Shown here piece after piece: positions 8,656 through 31,289 of a stretch of 49,016 bases of DNA. The notes below the pieces were generated by a model, which worked only from the letters and a program-made list of their open reading frames with translations, was not told the origin of the DNA and did not search any database. How positions within the stretch are numbered: the first letter of the stretch is position 1; each line of letters starts with the position of its first letter. Both the position numbers and the translations under genes were made by a program. Origin of the DNA: Agathobacter sp. (lineage in GTDB: Bacteria > Bacillota > Clostridia > Lachnospirales > Lachnospiraceae); assembly GCA_017409825.1 (NCBI GenBank), contig JAFQRZ010000017.1, forward strand, positions 1 to 49,016, given 5' to 3'.

Positions 8656-11085
8656 TTATCCTTTGATAAATCCAGAAATCACTTTTCCTAATCCCTTAAA
8701 GAAATGTCCATTCGCAATTTCCGTAATTCCATATACCATCTTCATATTCACCATACCACCAGTCATTCGAGAAATACCGCGGATAGGCATATTGTAAATG
8801 AATAAGATATCCAGATTTGGCTCTCCCTTCGCTATTGCTTTATTCAGCATACCTGTAAGAACTTTATATACAAGCCTGCAAAGTCCACTCTTTGCATAAT
8901 AGAACTGACAAAACGCATCGTTGATACCAATTTCGCCACCCCAGCTTCCATCAGGAAGCTCAGTTCCATATAAAAGTGTAAATTCATCACTGTCGACTTT
9001 TGCAATATTTCCTGCAAAATAGCTTGGAAGTAACGCATCGCTATATGGCCCCTCTTTTACCGTTCCTGCTATCGTAACATCTGTTTTAAGCTCTATCTGA
9101 TTTGCATTTCGTCCAATCTGGATGCGATATGTTCCACTTTCCACTTCCCAAGTATTCGTTCTCACATCAAAGAAACGGAATGCCTTGTCATCAAACGGAA
9201 TCACAACTTCCTTTTCTTCTCCTGCTGCAAGTTCTACTCTGGCAAATCCCTTTAATTCACGCATTGGACGGAACACCGTGTCAGATTCTAAAGAGACATA
9301 TAACTGTGCAACTTCTGCTCCTGCTCGCTCTCCTGTATTTTTTATTGTAAAACGAACCTCATGCTCATTTGCTTTGATATCTTTATACTCAAATGTAGTA
9401 TAGCTAAGGCCATAACCAAATGGAAAACGTACTTCTTTTCCTACTGTCGTGTAATAACGGTATCCTACATATAAACTTTCACGATACTCACTATTTCGTT
9501 CTTTACTTGGATAGTACGCATACGCAGGCGTATCTTCATAGTATATTGGGTAGGTTTCATTCAAACGACCAGATGGATTCACTTTTCCTGTCAAGACATT
9601 TAGCATTGCAGAAGCACCTGCCTGACCACCTAGGTATCCCTGAACGATAGCCTTTACCCTGTCTGCCCAAGGCATCTCTACTGGTGAACCTGCGGATAAT
9701 ACGACGATAATATTATCATATTTCTCAGCTAATGCTTCGATAAGCTCATTCTGCGCATCTGCCATTTTCATATGTGTTCTATCTAAGCCTTCTGCCTCAC
9801 CGATTTCATCTAAACCAGCAAAGACAAGTACTGCATCTACATCTTTTGCTATTTTTACCGCAGTATCAATTAGCTGTGCATCTGGCTTTTCGTTTCTCTT
9901 ATAGCCCTGTGCGAAGCTTACCATATGTAAATCTGTATTCTCGATACAATTCAATATACTTTCTGGTTCCTTCGTTGGATTTACCAAGGAAGAACCTGCC
10001 CCCTGATATCGAGGTGTCTGTGCAAAATCACCGATGATTGCAACTTTAGATTTCTCTGCAAGTGGCAAGATATTTCCATCATTTTTTAAAAGGACGATGC
10101 CTTCCTCTGCTACTTTTCTTGCAAGTGCATGATGTGCTTCCACATCAAATCCCTGCTCCGTCATCGTCGTTGTACCCAGATTATGTACCTTTTTTGCCTC
10201 TTCTAAACCAGAATGTGTCGTCAAAATCACATCCAAAAGCTCATCTAAACGCTGGTCTAATTCTACTTCTGTGAGTACACCATCCGCGATACCTTTTAAG
10301 ATTTCTTTTTGACCAGTTTTCGTCGTACCCGGCATTTCTAAGTGTGAGCCATGCTTTACCCCAAGCGCATGATCATTACTAGCTCCCCAGTCGGAAACCA
10401 CGTAGCCATCAAATCCCCATTCATCTACAAGAATTTCCTGTAACAAATGCTTATTTTCATTGGCATATACACCATTCACTTCGTTGTAGGAAGACATGAT
10501 AGACTTCGCCTTACCTTCTTTGACTGCGATTTCAAATCCTGTCAAATAAATTTCACGCAAGGTTCTTTCATCTACAACAGAATTCATCGCCATACGACGA
10601 AGCTCCTGACTATTTACTGCAAAATGCTTTGGACACGCAGAAATACCATAGCTCTGAATTCCCTTTACTAGAGAAGCCGCCATTTTTCCTGCATGATATG
10701 GGTCTTCCGAATAATATTCAAAATTTCTACCGCAAAGTGGACTTCTCTTGATATTTAATCCTGGTCCTAAAACGACATGCACTCCCATAGAAACAGTCTC
10801 TTCTGCAAGCGCCTTACCCATTTCTTCTACCAATGCTTCATTCCAGGTATTTGCTACGGTCGCTGCAGTCGGAAAACAGGTCGCTGGCATACTTGCATTT
10901 AACCCTAAATGATCTCCCACTCCAGATGGCTGGGTACGCATCCCGTGTGGTCCGTCAGACATCATCATCGACGGAATCCCATACTGTGGATAATCCTGTG
11001 TCTGCCAGGTATTCTTTCCTGACATCATAAGTGCCTTTTCTTCTAGGGACATTTTCTTAATTATGTCTTCGTGCTTTAATCCCAT
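8656..11085 (-). CDS. GH3 beta-glucosidase-type hydrolase, canonical order
   Basis: An 809-residue GH3 enzyme without signal peptide, hence probably cytoplasmic. The barrel covers about residues 5-285, with KHFAVNS (153-159) and nucleophile Asp232 in YVVSDWGA. The second domain (about 320-545) carries a likely acid/base Glu432 in AEGLDR. A fibronectin-III-like domain follows (about 580-675). The last 130 residues form an extra tail with amphipathic, Gly- and Met-rich segments not needed for GH3 activity. Likely job: release of terminal beta-linked glucose or xylose from imported oligosaccharides. It heads an operon with the LytTR two-component genes. Confidence 0.93.
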   Translation of the reverse strand: MGLKHEDIIKKMSLEEKALMMSGKNTWQTQDYPQYGIPSMMMSDGPHGMRTQPSGVGDHLGLNASMPATCFPTAATVANTWNEALVEEMGKALAEETVSMGVHVVLGPGLNIKRSPLCGRNFEYYSEDPYHAGKMAASLVKGIQSYGISACPKHFAVNSQELRRMAMNSVVDERTLREIYLTGFEIAVKEGKAKSIMSSYNEVNGVYANENKHLLQEILVDEWGFDGYVVSDWGASNDHALGVKHGSHLEMPGTTKTGQKEILKGIADGVLTEVELDQRLDELLDVILTTHSGLEEAKKVHNLGTTTMTEQGFDVEAHHALARKVAEEGIVLLKNDGNILPLAEKSKVAIIGDFAQTPRYQGAGSSLVNPTKEPESILNCIENTDLHMVSFAQGYKRNEKPDAQLIDTAVKIAKDVDAVLVFAGLDEIGEAEGLDRTHMKMADAQNELIEALAEKYDNIIVVLSAGSPVEMPWADRVKAIVQGYLGGQAGASAMLNVLTGKVNPSGRLNETYPIYYEDTPAYAYYPSKERNSEYRESLYVGYRYYTTVGKEVRFPFGYGLSYTTFEYKDIKANEHEVRFTIKNTGERAGAEVAQLYVSLESDTVFRPMRELKGFARVELAAGEEKEVVIPFDDKAFRFFDVRTNTWEVESGTYRIQIGRNANQIELKTDVTIAGTVKEGPYSDALLPSYFAGNIAKVDSDEFTLLYGTELPDGSWGGEIGINDAFCQFYYAKSGLCRLVYKVLTGMLNKAIAKGEPNLDILFIYNMPIRGISRMTGGMVNMKMVYGITEIANGHFFKGLGKVISGFIKG

Positions 11086-11136
11086 AGTCTTTTCTCCTTT
11101 TTCTATACAATAGAACTTGTTTACATTTTATCACAC

Positions 11137-11142
11137 ATTATA
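11137..11142 (-). promoter_or_regulatory. -10 box candidate for the GH3 operon
   Basis: Reads TATAAT on minus, preceded by TTG, about 50 bases before the GH3 start. A palindromic CTATACAATAG lies between it and the ribosome site and could be an operator. No convincing -35 box. Confidence 0.35.
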
Positions 11143-11200
11143 CAATTTAATCTACCGCAATATGATATTTTTTGTGTATTTTCCTAATATCTTAGCAAGA

Positions 11201-11243
11201 AAAAAACGACAAGTCATGACAATTTCATAACTCGTCGTTTTTT
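11201..11243 (-). terminator. terminator of the GPH transporter gene
   Basis: A 14-bp stem (11206-11219 with 11225-11238) has a 5-base loop and flanking A/T tracts. Two positions pair only as G-U wobbles in the minus-strand RNA and would mismatch in the plus RNA, which fixes the strand. Confidence 0.85.
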
Positions 11244-11256
11244 TGACATAAATTGT

Positions 11257-12678
11257 TTATTCTACTAACTCGCCTCTACGCTCTTTCAACTCTTTTGTCA
11301 CTTGTTCCTTCAAGGACTGTGGATATTTGATAAAAAGAAGCGGAATAATATAAAGTGCTGCCCCGATTGCTGGTCCAATCATAAACAATGGCCAAATCCA
11401 TGTATTGAATGCGTCGGAAAGTGGTGCTCCTGCTGCAATCGCTTCTGCATCATAAGCAAGGAAGGTAAGGAGCGCGCCTGCGATTACAGTATTGAGTGCA
11501 TTTGCAATCTTATCACAGAAGGTCTGTGCCGCAAAGGTAATCGCTTCTGCACGTTTGCCTGTCTTCCATTCCATATAGTCGATGGAATCTCCCCAAAGTG
11601 CCGTACGTGCAATACCAAACATACTACCCGGAATACTTCCAATACCGAATAAAATCATTGAAATCCAAATACGATTGCCTTCAAATCCTACAAAGAAAGC
11701 AGCAACTCGCATCACTACGGTAAGTAAATTTGCAGCAATCAGTACATTTCTCATACCACCTAGTTTCTTAGAAAGCAATGTCGTAAAGAACATGCCTGCT
11801 CCTGTAAACATATAGGAAAATCCATAGAATAGCGTCATAACCGTAAGTCCGCCCATTTCCTGCCCAAACAAAGTAGCAGTAACCTTATGTTCAAAGAAGT
11901 ATGCTGCTGGCACAGTCAACGACAAACCGTTTAAAATGTTTCCCAAGAGAACTAGCATAACAATTTTGTTTTCGAACAGCATTTTCAGGTTCTCTTTAAA
12001 GGAGCTAGCGGTCGTCTCTTCTGTCGCCTGAATGCGTTCCTTCGCTTTTGCAGACAACATAGAAAGTGCCATACCACCGATTCCGAATACGATAGCTGCA
12101 CCAAAGTAAATGTGCTTTCTTGCAACGCCCTGCTGCATCAAAGCATCCATAACGGTTGGAAAAACACCTACCATGCCAAAGCCCATCGCGGCTACGATTC
12201 TACCCCACTGGGATATTTTTTCACGTTCGGCTGGCACATCCGTCATTACCGAAGTCATACTCCACATAGATACGTCCTGTACTGTAAAAATCATATCGTA
12301 TGCTAAATACAATACCAATATGTAAATCGCCTTTGGCATATCTCCCTGGAATCCCCAGTCTGTAAACAGCAATACAATGATAATACCGATAAAAATCGGT
12401 GTAGCACGCAATAACGGACGGAATTTCTCGCCATTCTTGAAACGATGTCTGTCAATTACCGTACCAATAATTGGGTCATTTACAGAATCCCATACACGGG
12501 CAATTCCAAGTACAAGCCCAATGATAATACCATCTACATACAAGACATCCGTACAAAATAGCATGAACCAATTCATCATCAGTGCACATGCTAAGTTCTG
12601 TCCATAAATCCCCATGCAGTAAAGCCAGGCTTCTTTCTGTCCAACTCTACCGCCTTTCATAAACATTTTCTTACTCAT
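11257..12678 (-). CDS. GPH-family (MelB-like) sugar:cation symporter
   Basis: A 473-residue membrane transporter with about twelve hydrophobic segments. The segment ARVWDSVNDPIIGTVIDR matches the signature loop of the glycoside-pentoside-hexuronide family, where the two Asp residues are involved in cation-coupled sugar uptake. Next to two GH3 hydrolases it probably imports a beta-linked disaccharide or oligosaccharide for the cytoplasmic GH3 enzyme. It has its own extended -10 promoter and terminator, so it is a separate transcription unit. Substrate is inferred only from context. Confidence 0.88.
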   Translation of the reverse strand: MSKKMFMKGGRVGQKEAWLYCMGIYGQNLACALMMNWFMLFCTDVLYVDGIIIGLVLGIARVWDSVNDPIIGTVIDRHRFKNGEKFRPLLRATPIFIGIIIVLLFTDWGFQGDMPKAIYILVLYLAYDMIFTVQDVSMWSMTSVMTDVPAEREKISQWGRIVAAMGFGMVGVFPTVMDALMQQGVARKHIYFGAAIVFGIGGMALSMLSAKAKERIQATEETTASSFKENLKMLFENKIVMLVLLGNILNGLSLTVPAAYFFEHKVTATLFGQEMGGLTVMTLFYGFSYMFTGAGMFFTTLLSKKLGGMRNVLIAANLLTVVMRVAAFFVGFEGNRIWISMILFGIGSIPGSMFGIARTALWGDSIDYMEWKTGKRAEAITFAAQTFCDKIANALNTVIAGALLTFLAYDAEAIAAGAPLSDAFNTWIWPLFMIGPAIGAALYIIPLLFIKYPQSLKEQVTKELKERRGELVE

Positions 12679-23024: not shown

Positions 23025-24899
23025 TTAATATCCAAGTGCTTTTCCATCACGTCTAGGGTCTGCAGCTCCAAATAAGCTGCCATCTTCTAGGTACATAACC
23101 CCCTGCACGCCACCGAAATAAATCTTCCACTGGCCTTTTTGTGTCATAGTATGTCCCATCGCCCTTAGTGCTGCAACGGTATCACCTGTAATCTGATATT
23201 TACAGCCGGTCTCATATTCGATTCCATTTTTTCCGCCATTATCATAAATACGGGCACAGTCAATAGCATCCTGTAAATTCATTCCATGGTCAATCACCTT
23301 GGAAATCACCTGTGCTATCGTTGTATAAATACGAAGTCCTGCTGGCGTTCCCAAAGTCATATATGGTGAACCATCTTCCTTCAATACGATAGTAGGACTC
23401 ATAGAACTAAGTGGATGCTTCTTTCCCTGTACACAATTTACACTATTTGGGTCAGTTGAAAAATCATGCATCTCATCATTTAATACAAAGCCATATCCAG
23501 GAACTGCCACACAGCTACCAAAGCTACATTCCAGTGTCTGAGTTACAGTTACGATATTTCCATATTTATCTGCTACCGAGAATGAGGTCGTAGAATCATG
23601 CACATATTCTGTTGGGTCTCCTGCCATCCAGGATTGTGACGTATTGGTAATCTTGTCTGCAATGGTCTTTGCATACGCTTTGTCTGTCAGTCCAGATAAT
23701 GGTACGTCTTCTACAAAATCCGTATCTGCCATATATGCCTCGCGATCTGCAAAGGTTGCCTTTAAGGTTTCGCTCCAAAGGTGCAGATATTCTGCTGAGT
23801 TTACCTTCATGCTTCCGATATCATAATTCTCTAAGATATTCAAAATCTGCACAATGTGCGTTCCACCAGAAGAAGGTGGTGGACAGGATATTACCTGATA
23901 GCCACGATAGGTTCCAGAAACTGGTTCTCGAAGATTCGCAGAATAGTTATCCAAATCCTCCTGTGTCATGACTCCACCATACTTTTGGATTTCAGCAAGC
24001 ATGGCTTCTGCAACTTCCCCTTTATAAAAAGCATCCGCACCATTTTCCGCAATCAACGTCATGGTTTTTGCCAAATCTGGATTTGAAAACTCTTCTCCAG
24101 TTTTATACAAACTTCCATTTGGCTTTAAATAATAGCTTCGAATCGCATCATATTTCTGGATAGAAGCTAATTTTTCTACTGTCTGATTATATTGGAAGCT
24201 TCCTACATGAAACCCGCGACTAGCAAGCTCAATCGCAGGTGTCATAATGGCTTTTCTTGTCAGTAAACCGGAGCCATACTTCTCCAATGCCATCTCCATT
24301 CCTGCAACTGTACCAGGTACTGCAACCGCAAGTCCGCCTAATTGATTTGCTTTTCCATCATTTTTTACATTTCCATTGGCATCCAGCCATGTATATGCCG
24401 TCTGTGCTGTTGGTGCAACTTCACGGAAATCGATAAAGGCATCTTCTCCATCCGCCGTATGAATCAGCATGAATCCGCCGCCACCAATGCCGGAAGACTG
24501 AGGTTCTACTACACCAAGGGCATAGGATACCGCAATGGCTGCGTCAATTGCATTTCCTCCTGCCTTAAGCACTGCAAGCCCAGCCTGAGACGCATACACA
24601 TTAGCAGTTGCAACCATACCATTTTCTCCGGTTGCCGAACGGTCACTTCGAATCAAATTGCCATTTCCATCTACCGAAGACCAGATTAATTCCACAACCC
24701 CTGTTCCACCATCATCAATGCTAACATAATCGATTTGTGGAGCTGGTTTCTCTGTCTGCTCTGATTCACTTGTAATATCTTCATTCTCCTGCGTTTCGCT
24801 ATTAGCAGTATTTTCTGTGTTTTTTTCATTCTCATTGCCACAGGCAACACACGAAAAAGCCAACACACAGGCTAGTAATAATGCAATTATTTTTTTCAT
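23025..24899 (-). CDS. gamma-glutamyltransferase lipoprotein
   Basis: A 624-residue exported lipoprotein (lipobox SCVACG, Cys20) followed by an acidic linker to about residue 60 and then a full gamma-glutamyltransferase. GIGGGGFM (138-144) and SSMSPTIV are family signatures. The probable autoprocessing and catalytic Thr437 is in DSTTSFSV, where the common His after the two Thr residues is replaced by Ser. The enzyme would cleave or transfer gamma-glutamyl groups on the outer membrane face. The start at 24899 has AAGGA in front. It is the last gene of the dlt-like operon, whose upstream ligase gene ends 25 bases earlier, so it may act on the same product or precursor. Confidence 0.9.
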   Translation of the reverse strand: MKKIIALLLACVLAFSCVACGNENEKNTENTANSETQENEDITSESEQTEKPAPQIDYVSIDDGGTGVVELIWSSVDGNGNLIRSDRSATGENGMVATANVYASQAGLAVLKAGGNAIDAAIAVSYALGVVEPQSSGIGGGGFMLIHTADGEDAFIDFREVAPTAQTAYTWLDANGNVKNDGKANQLGGLAVAVPGTVAGMEMALEKYGSGLLTRKAIMTPAIELASRGFHVGSFQYNQTVEKLASIQKYDAIRSYYLKPNGSLYKTGEEFSNPDLAKTMTLIAENGADAFYKGEVAEAMLAEIQKYGGVMTQEDLDNYSANLREPVSGTYRGYQVISCPPPSSGGTHIVQILNILENYDIGSMKVNSAEYLHLWSETLKATFADREAYMADTDFVEDVPLSGLTDKAYAKTIADKITNTSQSWMAGDPTEYVHDSTTSFSVADKYGNIVTVTQTLECSFGSCVAVPGYGFVLNDEMHDFSTDPNSVNCVQGKKHPLSSMSPTIVLKEDGSPYMTLGTPAGLRIYTTIAQVISKVIDHGMNLQDAIDCARIYDNGGKNGIEYETGCKYQITGDTVAALRAMGHTMTQKGQWKIYFGGVQGVMYLEDGSLFGAADPRRDGKALGY

Positions 24900-24923
24900 C
24901 CTTTTATCCTTACATACAAGCAT

Positions 24924-26417
24924 CTATTTTGCACTGTAAATTCGTTTTAACTCTACTCTGTCAATCTTACCATTTGCATTGAGTGGAACCTTGTCAATCA
25001 ATACGATTCTGTTTGGAACCATGTAAGAGGAGAGTTTTTCTGTAAGTGCAGCCTTAATCTGTGGACCAGCTAATTCACTGTCTGGCGCACATTCACAGTA
25101 AAGTATGATTCGTTTCTTGTCACCATCATAGATGCATCCACATTTTTCAATACCATCTAAGCTCAACGCCGCTACTTCGATTTCCCCAAGCTCAATGCGA
25201 TGTCCCATATGTTTAATCTGAAAATCCTTTCGGGAAGTAAATACCAAATCACCATTCTCATTATAAAAAGCGATATCTCCCGTTTTAAAGTAACGTCTTT
25301 CCCCTGTTCCATCCAAGTCCATGGTCACAAAAGCGTTTTCCGTCTTTTCTTTATCACCATAATATTCCTTGGCAAGAGCTTTGGAAGAAAGATAAATTTC
25401 ACCGCTTACCTTCTGGTCTGTAATGACTTTGCCGCTCTCCTGGTCAACCAATACGATTTTACAGTTTGAAAGAGGCTTGCCCATTGGAAGAGAATCTGTG
25501 TCTGCAAACACATCCTCCTTTTTCACTTCATAATACAGGCAGATGCCTGCAATTTCAGAAGAACCATATAGATTTACATAATTTAAATCTGGCATTTCCT
25601 TACGCCATTTATTCAACTGCTTCATTGGAAATACCTCTCCAACGAAGAATACATTTTTCAATGTTGTAGGCTTAATATCTGCAAATACATTTAACTGTGT
25701 CAATAATGACAATGCCGATGGCACCCATGAAATGGTACCCACCTGCTTTTCATTCAAATATTCCACCAATTTCACTGGCATAGAGAACAATGAAGTTGGA
25801 ATAATCTGCATCGTCGCCATATTTTTCAAGCAAAGATAAATATCCTTTGCCGATGCATCAAAAAAGAATGGAGTCTGGTTTCCCAAAATTTCATGCTCCG
25901 CATAAGGATAGGTCGCAGAAAATGCCTCCACATAGTCAATCATAGCACCATGGGTTTTCAATCCTCCCTTTGGTACTCCCGTCGAACCTGAGGTAAAGAT
26001 TAAATATAATGCTTCATCCTGTGCATCTGCGTGGTAAGTATATTCCAATGCTTCACTTGAAATCCCTTCATCTGCAATCACTTCCGAAATATCCTCAATC
26101 GTAAGCAAAAGCTCCATGCCCGACTGTTCGATAATGTGATTCTTTTTTTCTTCTTTCAATTCAGGGTCTACTGGTACATAAAAGTTACCACTGTACAAAA
26201 TACCCATAAAAAGAACCAAGGTATACTTATCTCTTCCTGCTACGACACCAATCGGTTTTCTGGTATTATGATAGCCTTTTTCCATAAGAAAAAGGCCCAC
26301 TTTTCTCGCTAAATTGCGATATTCTTTATAGGTAAGTTTTCCATTGCCGTCTTCCAAAGCAATCCTATCTGGATTTACTTTGGCGGCCTGTTCTAAATAA
26401 TCTAATACGTTCATCAT
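24924..26417 (-). CDS. DltA-like adenylating ligase
   Basis: A 497-residue cytoplasmic AMP-forming ligase. Core motifs are FTSGSTGVPKG (141-151), FFFDASAKDIY (A4, 184-194), YGSSE (284-288, where DltA has YGPTE), the KTGD motif and the C-terminal NANGKIDR lysine. It should activate an amino or carboxylic acid and load it on the carrier protein at 29594-29824. The position matching the selectivity Cys of DltA (FCGE) is Val259 in FFVGEVFP, so the substrate may not be D-alanine. The start overlaps the stop of the lipoprotein gene by one base (TAATG). The Dlt resemblance rests on gene company as much as on sequence. Confidence 0.85.
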   Translation of the reverse strand: MMNVLDYLEQAAKVNPDRIALEDGNGKLTYKEYRNLARKVGLFLMEKGYHNTRKPIGVVAGRDKYTLVLFMGILYSGNFYVPVDPELKEEKKNHIIEQSGMELLLTIEDISEVIADEGISSEALEYTYHADAQDEALYLIFTSGSTGVPKGGLKTHGAMIDYVEAFSATYPYAEHEILGNQTPFFFDASAKDIYLCLKNMATMQIIPTSLFSMPVKLVEYLNEKQVGTISWVPSALSLLTQLNVFADIKPTTLKNVFFVGEVFPMKQLNKWRKEMPDLNYVNLYGSSEIAGICLYYEVKKEDVFADTDSLPMGKPLSNCKIVLVDQESGKVITDQKVSGEIYLSSKALAKEYYGDKEKTENAFVTMDLDGTGERRYFKTGDIAFYNENGDLVFTSRKDFQIKHMGHRIELGEIEVAALSLDGIEKCGCIYDGDKKRIILYCECAPDSELAGPQIKAALTEKLSSYMVPNRIVLIDKVPLNANGKIDRVELKRIYSAK

Positions 26418-26950
26418 TAATTATAATCAACCTTTGTCTGATATTCGATAGAAACGATTTCGTCATTCTCTACGATGAAATAGAGACATCCGTTTCCTTT
26501 TTCATAGGTATATTCGTTGCCGTTTACTGTTGTTGCTTCGCCATAAGCTTTGAGCATATCATCTTTTGACATATAAAGGGAAATGCCCTCCGTTGTCTTT
26601 ACAAGGTCATCCTTGAAGTAAATAGATGCAAGCATGTCTTTTCCATCCTTTGGATAGGTATCTAACTGGAAGCTAGAATAGGTATAGAATTTATCCATAC
26701 CATCAAATGCACAGCTAGCCGCTTCATAATATGCTACTGGTTCACCCAACTTGCTTACTACACTTTCAATATCTTCATTTACAGAAATTTCCATTCCATC
26801 ATAAGTAAATACATAGCTTGCTTCATCTGCTGCATTATTTTCTTTGTCAGAATTATTATTTCCTGCATTTCCACCATTATCTCCGCCACCACATGCTGTC
26901 AAAACGACACAACTTACTGCAAGTAATAAAGTTAATAATCTCTTCTTCAT
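26417..26950 (-). CDS. small lipoprotein in the dlt-like operon
   Basis: A 177-residue lipoprotein (lipobox LTACG, Cys20) with an Asn/Gly-rich linker to about residue 45 and a compact domain of about 130 residues. The domain resembles BamE/SmpA-like or copper-amine-oxidase-N-like small folds only in general pattern: a strand with TYDGMEISV, a helix with VVSKLGEP, and a later strand-turn EYTYEKGNGCLYFIVEND. I do not recognise a family with confidence. It overlaps the DltD-like gene by 4 bases (ATGA) and the ligase gene by 1 base, so it is an obligate member of the cassette. Confidence 0.82.
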   Translation of the reverse strand: MKKRLLTLLLAVSCVVLTACGGGDNGGNAGNNNSDKENNAADEASYVFTYDGMEISVNEDIESVVSKLGEPVAYYEAASCAFDGMDKFYTYSSFQLDTYPKDGKDMLASIYFKDDLVKTTEGISLYMSKDDMLKAYGEATTVNGNEYTYEKGNGCLYFIVENDEIVSIEYQTKVDYN

Positions 26951-27987
26951 TGTTTTTTCGCTGCCTCCTCTGCAATCGCATCTTCAATCGCTTTCTTATA
27001 CGCTTCTACTTTTGGTTCCCAAACAGATACATAGGCCTCATCATTTCGATGATCCTTTATGCCATGTTCCTCTAACAGTTTTGCGCCGATATAATCGGAC
27101 ATTTTTTCTGCACCAGAAAGGTTCATGTGCATACCTGCATCATACGTATCTGTCGTATAATCGATACCAATTTCCTCTGCAAGTTCTAAGAAATTGTAGT
27201 AAGTAATATCATATTTTTCTGCGTAAGCATCTACCTGTGCTTCCCATTCATCATACCAATGTGGGAAAAGACTAGGTGCTTTCACAAAAACAAGCTCAAT
27301 TCCTTTTTTATCGCAAAGCTCACGCATCTTATCCAGATATTCCATTGGATAATCTGCAAACTGGTAATTCGCCAATCTCTTTGGTTCCGGAATATGTGTT
27401 ACCGGTCTAACATCTACTCTCAAATAATACCCTTCAAATGTAACCGGGTCTTTGTGGAACAAATATGTAAAATCCTCCGATGTCAATTCACTCCATCTGG
27501 TGTGATAACGAAGAATTGGGAACACATAATCCAATGCATTTTCATCCTCGGTCATGGATGCCTGAATCGAGTTCCATTTCGCTGAGGACCAGCGCATTCC
27601 GTCAATTGTCATACGATTGTAGGCTTCATTTTCTGGACCTGCATGCATGAGTGACATGATATTGAACACGACAACCTCTGGAGTTTCGTATTGCAAGGTA
27701 TCCTCTAACAAATAATATGACTGCCAGATTAACTGCTGCGCACTACCACGTACATAGCTGCTGATTCCGTATTTCTCCCAAAGTCTGCATGGAGAAATGT
27801 TTTCATATACTTCACAGTCTCCCAAAAACAAAACATCATGATTTTTCTCGGAATCATAGTATTCTTCTATCATCGCTCCTTCGATAATATCGGTCATATA
27901 TTTTGGTATCAAAAGCTCTTGCAAAAAGGCTAATACCAAAACGACCACAACTATCGTTGGTACAATTTTCTGTAACACTTTTTTCAT
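26947..27987 (-). CDS. DltD-like SGNH-fold protein with Cys at the nucleophile position
   Basis: A 346-residue protein with one N-terminal membrane segment (about 9-25) and an extracellular SGNH-like domain. Block I reads LFLGDCEVYE, so Cys58 replaces the usual Ser of GDS. The Asp-His pair appears in DAGMHMN near residue 280, and the rest of the fold (VVFNIMS, VFVKAPS) is intact. DltD proteins complete transfer of the activated group from the membrane acyltransferase to the surface polymer. The gene begins 11 bases after the MBOAT stop. A Cys nucleophile would favour thioester chemistry; loss of activity is the alternative. Confidence 0.82.
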   Translation of the reverse strand: MKKVLQKIVPTIVVVVLVLAFLQELLIPKYMTDIIEGAMIEEYYDSEKNHDVLFLGDCEVYENISPCRLWEKYGISSYVRGSAQQLIWQSYYLLEDTLQYETPEVVVFNIMSLMHAGPENEAYNRMTIDGMRWSSAKWNSIQASMTEDENALDYVFPILRYHTRWSELTSEDFTYLFHKDPVTFEGYYLRVDVRPVTHIPEPKRLANYQFADYPMEYLDKMRELCDKKGIELVFVKAPSLFPHWYDEWEAQVDAYAEKYDITYYNFLELAEEIGIDYTTDTYDAGMHMNLSGAEKMSDYIGAKLLEEHGIKDHRNDEAYVSVWEPKVEAYKKAIEDAIAEEAAKKQ

Positions 27988-27998
27988 TTTACGTCTCC

Positions 27999-29594
27999 TT
28001 AGAACTGATTATAAATAAATGAGCTTTCATCATATCCCTGTCCATAAGCACCTGCTAAAAGCACTACTACAAATAATGCTAGCCAGATTGCTGCTCGTAC
28101 TGGATATGGGAGTTCCAATATACGCTCTCTTACCTGCTTCTTTCTCTGTAACATACTAACTACAAAAATCAGTACGACACCAAATAGAATAATCAGATAA
28201 TCTGTTCCATTCAGTCCAAGTGCTAACATGGAGCCATCCCAAAGTGCTGAAATATTCCATGTCGTAAACATACTGAAAAACATTTTCACCGTAACTGTTA
28301 CATCACGATAACAGTCAAACATTCGAAGTGCACTCATCAAAAGAATCGTACGAATGACACAAAATGTTTTATACCAAAGCTTCCCTTCCACATCAAAACG
28401 ATTGTGGAATTTTGTATATAGTGGAGATAATTCCTGTGAAATCAAAATAACTACACAGTTTGCCAAGCCCCAAACGATGAAGTTCCAGCTTGCTCCATGC
28501 CAGATACCGGTAGTAAACCAAACCAAAATCGTTGCAAGGTAAACCGGTACACGTTTTCCTATATTTTCCCCAAGAACCTTTCTCGCTTTTTTCGAAAGCT
28601 TCAACATAAAACCAGATACAGAAATTGGATAGAAAATATAATCCGTAAACCAGCTTCCCATGGTCATATGCCATCTGTTCCAATATTCCTTGATATTCTT
28701 AGAGAAGTATGGGCGGTGGAAGTTTTCCGTCACCTTAATTCCCATGGTTTCTGCAATACCAATGGTGATATCAATTCCACCCGTAAAGTCTGCATACAAC
28801 TGGATGGCGTAAAACATCATTGCTACAAAGAAATAAATTCCTGGATAATCCTCTGGTGCAGCGAGCAATGTCTTTAATCCAATTAATACTCGGTCTGCAA
28901 TTACCAGCTTTTTAAAATAACCCCAGAGAATTCTCTGCAAACCAAAAGAAACCACCTTGGCATCAAACCTATGCTCTGCATATAAGGTTTGTGATAAGTC
29001 ATTGTATCGGCTGATTGGTCCCTGAGATAACTGTGGGAAAAAGCCTACGAATAATGCAAATTTTCCGTAGTTGTTCTGTGCTTCGTATTTCTCATTGTAC
29101 ACATCCACAAGATAACCAACGGTCTGGAATGTGTAGAAGGAAATTCCCAACGGCATAATGATATCCAAATAAGAAATCGGTTCCATATTGGATACACTTG
29201 TAATAATCCCATTGATATTTTCAATGATAAAATTCGTATATTTAATTCCTATCAAAAGGCCTAAATCTACAAATAATGCACCCCACAAGAAAAGACGTTG
29301 TTTTTTCTTAACGCCTTCCTTGTATGTTTTCTTTGCTTCCCTGTCCAGGGTCGCCTTATTCTCTTTTAAATACGCAGTCTTCTCTTTTGATAAGCTGCTG
29401 ATTTTTCTTGCACATAGGTAGGTTACCAGTGTCGTAATACTGATAAAAATCAGATATGAAGGGCCTGCACTAAAGTATAATACATAGCTTGCGCCCAACA
29501 AAAACATCCACTGAAAGCGTTTTGGTATACTGTAATAGATAACCAATACTGCTGCTACTGCAAGAATAAATTCATAAGATGTGAAACTCATCAT
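27999..29594 (-). CDS. MBOAT membrane acyltransferase (DltB/AlgI-like)
   Basis: A 531-residue membrane protein with about eleven hydrophobic segments. The MBOAT motifs are present: NRWHMTMGSWFTDYIFYP and the catalytic His in TGIWHGASWNF. Such proteins pass an acyl or aminoacyl group from a cytoplasmic carrier through the membrane. With a carrier gene directly upstream (one-base TAATG overlap) and an adenylating ligase in the same operon, a DltB-type role is more likely than an AlgI-type acetyltransferase. No DltX-like small ORF was seen. Confidence 0.92.
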   Translation of the reverse strand: MMSFTSYEFILAVAAVLVIYYSIPKRFQWMFLLGASYVLYFSAGPSYLIFISITTLVTYLCARKISSLSKEKTAYLKENKATLDREAKKTYKEGVKKKQRLFLWGALFVDLGLLIGIKYTNFIIENINGIITSVSNMEPISYLDIIMPLGISFYTFQTVGYLVDVYNEKYEAQNNYGKFALFVGFFPQLSQGPISRYNDLSQTLYAEHRFDAKVVSFGLQRILWGYFKKLVIADRVLIGLKTLLAAPEDYPGIYFFVAMMFYAIQLYADFTGGIDITIGIAETMGIKVTENFHRPYFSKNIKEYWNRWHMTMGSWFTDYIFYPISVSGFMLKLSKKARKVLGENIGKRVPVYLATILVWFTTGIWHGASWNFIVWGLANCVVILISQELSPLYTKFHNRFDVEGKLWYKTFCVIRTILLMSALRMFDCYRDVTVTVKMFFSMFTTWNISALWDGSMLALGLNGTDYLIILFGVVLIFVVSMLQRKKQVRERILELPYPVRAAIWLALFVVVLLAGAYGQGYDESSFIYNQF

Positions 29595-29824
29595 TATTCT
29601 CCGTCTTCTAATCGTTCAATCATAGCCCAAAGTGCTTCTGCAGAGTTAAAGTTTTCTGGAATAATTTCTTTTGCTGGAACTACTACATCAAAGGTATCTG
29701 CAATTTCTGAAATAATTGTAATAATGTCAAAAGAATCCAAAATCGCACTATCAATCAAATGTTCTTCTGTTTCAAAATCTACTTCTGGGTGAAGGTCTGT
29801 TAAAATTTCAAGTAATTCGTTCAT
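29594..29824 (-). CDS. acyl/peptidyl carrier protein (DltC-like)
   Basis: A 76-residue acidic protein with the four-helix carrier pattern. The phosphopantetheine attachment site is Ser31 in ILDSFDII. It matches DltC in size and in being encoded next to an MBOAT gene. It would carry the group activated by the ligase at 24924-26417 as a thioester to the membrane. The order here (carrier before MBOAT, ligase later) differs from the common dltA-B-C-D order. Confidence 0.9.
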   Translation of the reverse strand: MNELLEILTDLHPEVDFETEEHLIDSAILDSFDIITIISEIADTFDVVVPAKEIIPENFNSAEALWAMIERLEDGE

Positions 29825-29858
29825 AATTTATTCTCCTTGTACTTTCATTCTTTTATCG

Positions 29859-31289
29859 TTATTGTATTTTTGGATACTTATCTCTTGTAAAATTATGGGA
29901 GCCACCATGATTATTCGAATATTCTAAAATCTGGGCATCCGTCCACATAAAGAACCAGGTTCCATCTGCTCGTCTTGTTGGATCGAAATGATAATACCCT
30001 TCTCCCAAATCCAACAGCAACCACCAGTGATTGTTTTTCGTGGTCCAACTCGCCTTTTCCTTTTGGATTACAAGTGGCTCAAGTCCAATGCGCTCCAATA
30101 ACAACTTCGCTGTCGCTGCATAGGTAAAGCAGTCACCACGTCTTTTCACCATTCCATTATAGGCACCCTCTAGCCAATCTCCCTTTGGTGAATCGTTTAC
30201 ATAGCCAATACTGCTTCGGGTCCACTTATAAATGGCATAAGCCTTTTCACGCATTGTCATAGAATCATTGATGATTTCTGCAAGAATCCGATCTGCATAG
30301 CTATTGACTTCTTCTACGGTATGTCCACCCGTCGAAGGTTCTACTACCTTAACTGTAATATCCTTCGTAGACGTATTACCTGCCAAATCTGTAGCCGTAC
30401 AATGTACTACATAACTTCCTACGGTACTTAAATTCACTTCTGAATTGTCAATTTCTAAGGCAATATCCGAAGCTGCATCACAGTTATCTGTCACACGAAT
30501 ACTCTTTTTATATGAAATTGTACCATTTTTGTCTACCTGAATGCTGGATGTCTGAATCGTAGGTGCTGTCGTATCAACAACCACTAAAGTTACATTTTCT
30601 ACGACTCCCTGCACCTGTATCTGTACTGGATGTTCACCAACCGTCGAAAGGATACTCTTATCTGGTTCTGTTGCATAAGATGCTTCAATCTGCTCATCCA
30701 ACACATATACACTCGCTGGCGGAAGTGCACTTCCACCTTCAATTGTATAGCTTGGAACTACGCCCTTTACAATTAGCTCTGCCGTTTGTGTGGTACTATT
30801 GTTATGAGCATCCGTCGCTGTTATCGTAACCGTCTGACTTCCAAGCTTTGTCGTATCTGGCTTGGTCACAAACGTATATGTCACCTCTGAAAAATCATTA
30901 CAGCTTGCAACGAAATCTTCCGCCTTACACTCCACACCATAATTTATAGAAAACTCCTGCAACGTAAGCTTCGGTTCTGTTGTGTCAACGACTTCTACCG
31001 TGACATTCATCGGGATAAGTCCCCATATTTTCACTAGGCACTTATAAGTCCCAACCTCATCCGTATTGATATAACCTGCTACTGTAGAATGTGCTTTAAA
31101 CTCTTTTTTCCATACGGCATTCACATCAAAAGGCGTTCCCGCTTCCGTTGTTACCTGAAAATTAAAATTCGATACAAGAAAAATACTCGCTGCGGCAAAG
31201 AATGCAATTATTACCAATGCCACTCCACCAATGGTATAATACTTTTTCCTATTTTCCTTATCGTTTATGTATTTTTCTATCAGCTCCAT
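29859..31289 (-). CDS. membrane-anchored Ig-like/transglutaminase-fold protein
   Basis: A 476-residue type II membrane protein. A 20-residue cytoplasmic start and one membrane segment (about 20-40) precede three or four Ig/HYR-like beta domains (about 45-315), each ending near VVDTT or TATD. The C-terminal 150 residues are a transglutaminase-like cysteine domain with triad Cys387 (RRGDCFTY), His421 (NNHWWLLL) and Asp436 (YHFDPT). Such domains act as proteases, amidases or cross-linkers at the cell wall. It is the promoter-proximal gene of the dlt-like operon, 34 bases before the carrier gene. Its role in the pathway is not known. Confidence 0.9.
   Translation of the reverse strand: MELIEKYINDKENRKKYYTIGGVALVIIAFFAAASIFLVSNFNFQVTTEAGTPFDVNAVWKKEFKAHSTVAGYINTDEVGTYKCLVKIWGLIPMNVTVEVVDTTEPKLTLQEFSINYGVECKAEDFVASCNDFSEVTYTFVTKPDTTKLGSQTVTITATDAHNNSTTQTAELIVKGVVPSYTIEGGSALPPASVYVLDEQIEASYATEPDKSILSTVGEHPVQIQVQGVVENVTLVVVDTTAPTIQTSSIQVDKNGTISYKKSIRVTDNCDAASDIALEIDNSEVNLSTVGSYVVHCTATDLAGNTSTKDITVKVVEPSTGGHTVEEVNSYADRILAEIINDSMTMREKAYAIYKWTRSSIGYVNDSPKGDWLEGAYNGMVKRRGDCFTYAATAKLLLERIGLEPLVIQKEKASWTTKNNHWWLLLDLGEGYYHFDPTRRADGTWFFMWTDAQILEYSNNHGGSHNFTRDKYPKIQ

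Follow-up and report, generated by a model that had tools for sequence, protein, structure and literature searches.

In the BtrI-BtrJ-BtrK and VinN-VinL-VinO systems, an amino acid is loaded on a carrier protein and decarboxylated by a pyridoxal phosphate (PLP) enzyme, giving small-molecule products; BtrK is the L-glutamyl-carrier-protein decarboxylase. Closer to the locus described here are the Dlt system (DltA, DltB, DltC, DltD and DltX), which adds D-alanine to teichoic acids of Gram-positive cell walls, and the pairs, such as PatA-PatB, formed by a membrane-bound O-acyltransferase (MBOAT) and an SGNH-type protein. An excerpt of PMC12148441 names FXYXXF as the acyl-shuttle motif of DltX, fused in other MBOATs, and as the acyl carrier in DltX and PatA, and it presents the other MBOAT-SGNH pathways as fed by acyl-CoA, with no carrier protein. 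Here we analyzed a stretch of 49,016 nucleotides from Agathobacter sp. (GCA_017409825.1, contig JAFQRZ010000017.1), called the window below, which holds a seven-gene unit on its minus strand. We lean towards reading this unit as a Dlt-like aminoacylation system that puts an acidic amino acid on an envelope polymer. The first-pass annotation of the window had proposed a Dlt-like unit that equips an extracellular target with an amino acid, and our analysis supports that proposal. The features of the unit are as follows.

31402-31379, minus strand: terminator-like stem between the upstream gene and the unit (8 such sites in the scanned region versus 4.7 expected)
29859..31289, minus strand: TG, membrane-anchored protein with immunoglobulin (Ig)-like domains and a transglutaminase core (PF01841, 1.4e-8); Cys387-His421-Asp436
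29594..29824, minus strand: CP, DltC-like carrier protein (weak DltC match); predicted phosphopantetheine Ser31, codon 29734-29732
27999..29594, minus strand: MBOAT, DltB-like acyltransferase (PF03062, 1.8e-11); His366; C-terminal FIYNQF with Tyr528, codon 28013-28011
26947..27987, minus strand: SG, DltD-like membrane-anchored protein, assigned from alignments; Cys58 (codon 27816-27814) at the place of the catalytic serine; Asp283, His287
26417..26950, minus strand: LP, lipoprotein; lipobox Cys20, and Cys80 (26711-26713)
24924..26417, minus strand: AD, amino-acid-adenylating ligase (AMP-binding, 2.1e-52); pocket code DAKSFVLGI (Asp187, Lys191)
23025..24923, minus strand: GGT, gamma-glutamyltransferase lipoprotein (PF01019, 1.5e-158; TIGR00066 over its cut-off); predicted catalytic Thr445

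An open reading frame (ORF) check of the window recovered all seven genes at these coordinates on the minus strand. They had been described as overlapping or nearly touching, and the six junctions bear this out with three overlaps, one abutting pair and two short gaps. Read 5′ to 3′, TG and CP are separated by 34 nt, CP and MBOAT overlap by 1 nt, MBOAT and SG are separated by 11 nt, SG and LP overlap by 4 nt, LP and the ligase overlap by 1 nt, and the ligase and GGT abut. The seven genes make up one unit, which probably begins with the TG gene, given the terminator-like stem just upstream. For GGT, translation more likely starts at Met9 (24899), since the lipobox lies after this residue; its Thr445 is predicted to be catalytic from the family motif. 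The domain scan gave no Pfam match at E<=0.001 for SG or LP.

An ortholog of SG amid recurring partners was found at 53 distinct clostridial loci, the window included. A partner gene was counted when it lay on the same strand within 8 kb of SG. On this count the 53 loci carry TG at 47, AD at 46, CP at 47, MBOAT at 51, LP at 44, a racemase at 30 and GGT at 2; for the 38 loci with long flanks (at least 7 kb upstream and at least 3 kb downstream), the corresponding numbers are 36, 32, 33, 36, 32, 21 and 2. The most frequent order, TG-racemase-AD-CP-MBOAT-SG-LP, is present at 10 of the 38 loci with enough flank. The same genes stand together in 53 distinct loci, which therefore indicates an association beyond chance. 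The genome collection contributed 46 loci (46 of 55 matched stretches), retrieved through six exact peptides of the window SG, none of which spans Cys58; near relatives are over-represented because the loci were sampled in this way. A further 20 stretches came from related genomes and from the window's own genome. The total of 53 is what 56 SG loci leave after removal of three identical ones (L056, L066 and L078); L036 and L056, whose SG sequences are identical, were treated as the same contig, and the partner row of the window was entered by hand from ORF and locus data. When SG was searched against 60 related genomes, 34 gave a match at E<=0.001, paralogs counted in.

The first-pass annotation had recommended a search for conservation of the seven-gene order and had held that absence of the flanking transglutaminase and gamma-glutamyltransferase genes from most orthologous loci would speak against its reading. 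Six of the seven genes recur in the 53-locus cassette, and the transglutaminase proved to be a regular partner, as a separate gene at 47 loci and additionally as a fusion to SG at L080. GGT is the part that did not hold, being absent from all but 2 of the 53 loci.

Two variations in gene content were observed around SG. At seven loci, all from Pseudobutyrivibrio (L069, L071, L082, L084, L088, L089 and L099), a D-Tyr-tRNA deacylase gene (Pfam on L084) lies 3′ of SG and occupies the usual place of LP; an eighth Pseudobutyrivibrio locus, L098, keeps LP. At L097 (5014-17605), five transglutaminase and two LP genes surround SG, with no MBOAT, ligase or carrier in the 21 kb covered.

The SG protein has a cysteine at the position that aligns with the catalytic serine of DltD. 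In a weak global profile match, its GDCE was aligned with the GSSE of DltD from L107 and L108. The residue is Cys in all 52 distinct aligned orthologs, and in 53 of 53 when the L080 fusion is added, while eight of nine SG paralogs have Ser. The ninth paralog, with Cys, comes from contig C14 of the window's genome (L051 6879-7865); it reads GSCH, with the cysteine at the nucleophile position, and adjoins another MBOAT. The Asp-His block gave a weak GDSL profile match (E<=1) in 42 of 48 SG members, with the cysteine as the predicted nucleophile. Searched as codons, the Cys motif was found in 26 of the 392 genomes covered from the order, and no Ser version was detected among these 392, the surrounding motif being itself specific to the cysteine clade. 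The Ser pattern re-found the same 27 Cys sites because it also permits TGN and ACN, and its one extra site (G125) codes Arg. Neither the serine-to-cysteine change nor the pocket lysine of the ligase described below had been pointed out in the first-pass annotation. A profile search of PDB sequences with SG yielded nothing credible (best E 0.017, taken as chance). RseA was considered as a relative on account of a single-sequence PDB match at 8e-4 and of PF03872 in 17 of 48 members, and was rejected since only a short stretch was involved.

DltX had been reported as not seen. This has to be corrected: the FXYXXF motif stands at the C-terminus of the MBOAT as FIYNQF, and the DltX motif is thus present, as judged from sequence, as a fusion to the MBOAT instead of a microprotein. 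The pattern FIY[ND][QR]F ends 49 of the 50 distinct cassette MBOATs of at least 40% identity; the fiftieth (L096) comes from a split gene and corresponds to its first half, the second half ending in FIYTQF. Among 71 aligned MBOAT rows, the conserved His and the motif Tyr were each present in 69. The DltB model scored 149 bits on the MBOAT, below its cut-off of 375. The carrier protein matched two DltC models at 31.1 bits (cut-off 68; 1.7e-7) and 20 bits (cut-off 52.35), with the serine motif present, and Ser-Phe or Ser-Leu occupies this motif in all 44 distinct proteins of its cluster, the window not counted. Because the other MBOAT-SGNH pathways are presented without a carrier, a carrier-fed MBOAT with a fused motif is a combination that the excerpt of PMC12148441 does not describe.

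The two remaining recurrent partners also carry invariant residues. Cys, His and Asp of TG are kept in 57 of 57 aligned rows. L080 is one of the two long-flank loci scored without TG, and its TG is fused to SG: a single 655-residue open frame (9906-11870) combines the cysteine SG, an Ig-like region and the transglutaminase core. In LP, Cys80 is invariant in the 34 sequences aligned (the window and 33 of 45 members of the cluster), 11 of which match DUF7738 weakly. With LP, a profile search of PDB sequences gave nothing credible (best E 0.16, taken as chance).

Clues to the cargo come from the ligase and the racemase. The ligase scores below the cut-offs of TIGR01733 (264 versus 317 bits), of the DltA model TIGR01734 (251.6 versus 559.85) and of NF003417 (262.8 versus 476). 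Pocket codes, read through alignment to a GrsA stretch, are DAKCAGLGM in 39 of 46 cassette-locus ligases, near variants of it in 3, DAKSFVLGI in 3 and DNLFYCMDV in 1, an extra ligase at L081. Lys at the GrsA-239 position is accordingly found in 45 of the 46, and the one DltA available (L107, code DLAVVVGVA) has Ala there. We take Lys at this position to be a feature of glutamate-activating domains. According to an excerpt of PMC12283262, Arg-activating domains have Glu at 239, and position 239 can therefore pair its charge with the side chain.

The racemase belongs to PF01177, and its closest solved structure is the aspartate racemase 1jfl (3.6e-54, L074 query). All 28 racemases scanned, of 32, match TIGR00035 (L074 228.8, cut-off 93.1), and Cys82 and Cys193 are invariant in the 28 aligned, of 32 in the cluster; the model of cysteate racemase (CuyB) was likewise matched by all 28 scanned. 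Racemase genes are present at 30 of 42 loci with a DAKC-type code and at none of the 3 DAKS loci. Searched in 60 relatives, the racemase matched nine genomes at E<=1e-20; six of these matches reach about 50% identity or higher across most of the protein length, and four of the six lie inside the cassette. An asparagine synthetase cluster (c13) was found at 5 loci, confirmed with Pfam for L076. Two further loci (7 in total) suggested by an AsnB-type hidden Markov model were rejected as weak (L060 138.8 and L097 37.8 bits, versus >1200 for the five).

In the window's lineage, the ligase appears to have a different history from its neighbors. The ligase tree places the DAKS ligases (window, L036/L056 and L057) in one group with a support of 100, outside 44 DAKC ligases (support 96), whereas in the SG tree the same loci fall inside the DAKC cassettes, with fork supports of 94 and 83. 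The two trees were obtained by quick searches, have long branches and carry no bootstrap values, and support for the second inner fork of the SG tree is only moderate. From the conflict between the trees, the ligase was probably replaced while the remainder of the cassette was kept. No racemase of the cassette type was detected in the window or in the window's genome with the query that found nine of the 60 relatives. GGT is a lineage-specific addition as far as its distribution among these loci tells, confined to the window and one close relative (L036/L056), and no conserved part of the cassette.

The order of transfers that we propose is drawn by analogy with Dlt and Pat. AD would activate an acidic amino acid and then load it on CP. 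The MBOAT, via His366, would move the cargo from CP through the membrane onto its own Tyr528 in FIYNQF, and Tyr528 would pass it to Cys58 of SG. From Cys58 the cargo would be given to a hydroxyl, possibly an amine, of an envelope polymer, with lipoteichoic acid or a surface glycan as the likeliest acceptors; an amine is conceivable because the SG enzyme intermediate would be a thioester. TG would act beside SG on the same substrate, and LP would assist. For most relatives, D-aspartate is the probable cargo, supplied by the cassette's aspartate-racemase-family enzyme, and in the window's lineage it would be an acidic amino acid, Asp or Glu, in the L or D form. As for the acceptor, the window's genome has five sulfatase-fold proteins, and one of the two scanned matches LtaS weakly (60.5 bits, cut-off 970); a polyglycerolphosphate acceptor is therefore possible.

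Related modules were found outside the cassette. Contig C26 of the window's genome (L050 2377-7861) carries a ligase with the code DVKIMSLCN, a decarboxylase, a carrier protein, an MBOAT and a serine SGNH-type protein. This ligase also has Lys at the GrsA-239 place, and the best solved relatives of the decarboxylase are BtrK structures. At L115, L116 and L117, two of them from genomes named Lachnospira, a ligase and a decarboxylase of the same Pfam families occur with a carrier; no MBOAT was found in the stretches seen, one of which is a 6.7-kb contig, and the TG-MBOAT-SG-LP unit is located elsewhere in these genomes. The C26 operon and the separated modules in three genomes therefore suggest interchangeable cargo modules. 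We tentatively extend this to a picture that we find possible and rather doubtful, in which Clostridia possess an envelope-aminoacylating family with exchangeable modules (ligase with aspartate racemase, DAKS ligase without racemase, ligase with BtrK-like decarboxylase), all feeding a fused-shuttle MBOAT, in trans in the three genomes. The thioester of its cysteine branch would allow an amide or an ester, and the transglutaminase, whether fused or neighboring, would then cross-link or remodel the aminoacylated polymer. If this were true, the module with the BtrK-like decarboxylase would deliver beta-alanine or gamma-aminobutyric acid (GABA).

Several observations weigh against an acidic cargo delivered by a DltD-like route. 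The pocket argument concerns one position only. The Glu code DAKDLGVVD was not found in the literature among the matches listed, and the excerpt of PMC12283262 contains no DAK code; the codes it reports are DAQDLGVVDK (Glu/Gln) and DLTKVGHVGK (Asp/Asn). The L074 racemase exceeds the cysteate-racemase cut-off (206.6 versus 190), and 12 of the 42 DAKC loci have no racemase, including 8 of the 29 with long flanks. In the window, the lack of a racemase and the differing code DAKSFVLGI mean that the cargo evidence from the relatives may not carry over. The alignment to DltD is weak (global E 7e-5, probability 35%, all rows used) and was not obtained from the Cys rows alone, local runs having covered only the C-terminal part. 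The MBOAT of L044, at 32% identity and outside the count of 50, ends FIYHSY, which is not FXYXXF. At L072, L073, L077 and L087 (L072 with a short upstream flank), TG-MBOAT-SG-LP stands without an adjacent ligase or carrier. For the C26 decarboxylase, BtrK is only narrowly ahead of diaminopimelate decarboxylases, and the NCBIfam cut-offs were missed for both.

One competing explanation is a diverged but ordinary D-alanylation, in which the ligase activates D-Ala and the remaining parts are those of Dlt, DltX being fused. The ligase, carrier and MBOAT do match the DltA, DltC and DltB models, albeit below the cut-offs. A search for a canonical dlt in the same genome, which the first-pass annotation had recommended, returned no match to the DltD family (PF04914) at E<=0.1, the genome being 97% complete, and the cassette could therefore be a stand-in for Dlt. 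We nevertheless regard D-alanylation as unlikely, since the pocket lysine is absent from the single DltA compared and the racemase, at 30 of 53 loci, is of the aspartate family and not an alanine racemase, with asparagine synthetase at 5 loci. The same machine might instead handle another cargo, namely cysteate, asparagine made from Asp, or a beta- or gamma-linked acyl group. The CuyB matches described above, including the L074 score, fit this, as do the five loci with asparagine synthetase; the BtrK-like decarboxylase of the paralogous system would, by its chemistry, require a free alpha-carboxylate. The best solved relative of the racemase is, however, an aspartate racemase, and asparagine synthetase occurs at few loci, so we give this alternative, too, a low probability.

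A reading in which the system attaches a gamma-glutamyl group that the GGT lipoprotein then trims or recycles, envisaged in the first-pass annotation, is in our view very improbable. In its favor, the GGT gene directly adjoins that of the ligase, its family scores indicate an intact protein, and it sits in the very lineage with the probable ligase replacement. Against this, GGT occurs at just 2 of the 53 loci, both in genomes closely related to each other, which leaves the involvement of a gamma-glutamyl step in the system unsupported, and GGT is also missing at L057, the relative that comes next among those sharing this ligase type (the locus alone was searched, not the genome). It is distinctly improbable, in turn, that the product is a small molecule or an aminoacyl lipid and that no polymer is decorated. 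The ligase and carrier resemble those of nonribosomal peptide synthetases, and no polymer gene was seen within the cassette; yet an MBOAT with a shuttle motif, combined with an SGNH-type protein anchored in the membrane, is how envelope acylation is laid out in the excerpt of PMC12148441, and TG, which carries Ig domains, is a surface protein.

If an acidic amino acid is indeed the cargo, the modification would leave the surface neutral or acidic, whereas D-Ala makes it more positive, and this bears on sensitivity to cationic peptides. Among the sampled genomes, a DltD-family match was found in 1 of 56 from the order, where it is marginal, and in 4 of 79 from the class, two of these matches being marginal; an excerpt of PMC10877564 lists no complete dltABCD for eight gut commensals. 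The order Lachnospirales includes major gut bacteria, and with nearly all of its sampled genomes lacking a DltD-family gene, how they adjust their surface charge becomes a question. The Cys-for-Ser DltD-like enzyme, the carrier-fed fused shuttle and the apparent ligase swap make the chemistry and evolution of envelope decoration testable.

Among the matches listed in the open-licence literature, searched by titles and abstract openings, we found no description of the cassette, of a carrier-fed MBOAT with an aspartate racemase, or of a cysteine SGNH partner, which is no proof of absence. The C26 operon has a ligase, a BtrK-like decarboxylase and a carrier in common with BtrI-BtrJ-BtrK and VinN-VinL-VinO and differs from them in running on into MBOAT and SGNH-type genes. 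With PatA-PatB and the other MBOAT-SGNH pairs that act on peptidoglycan or alginate, the cassette shares the C-terminal FXYXXF and a separate SGNH-type partner; those pairs are acyl-CoA-fed and carrier-free in the excerpt of PMC12148441, whereas the cassette has a ligase, a carrier and a Cys partner. With Dlt it shares a ligase, carrier protein, MBOAT and DltD-like protein in one unit, the acyl-Tyr shuttle motif and, as predicted here, transfer to an outside polymer. It differs from Dlt in its MBOAT-fused shuttle, in Cys for the catalytic Ser, in the ligase pocket, in the TG and LP partners and, in most relatives, in the aspartate-racemase-family partner, and its proteins miss the curated DltA, DltB and DltC cut-offs. 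By these sequence-based comparisons, the cassette falls outside Dlt on ligase, MBOAT, DltD and catalytic serine, yet appears built to work like Dlt.

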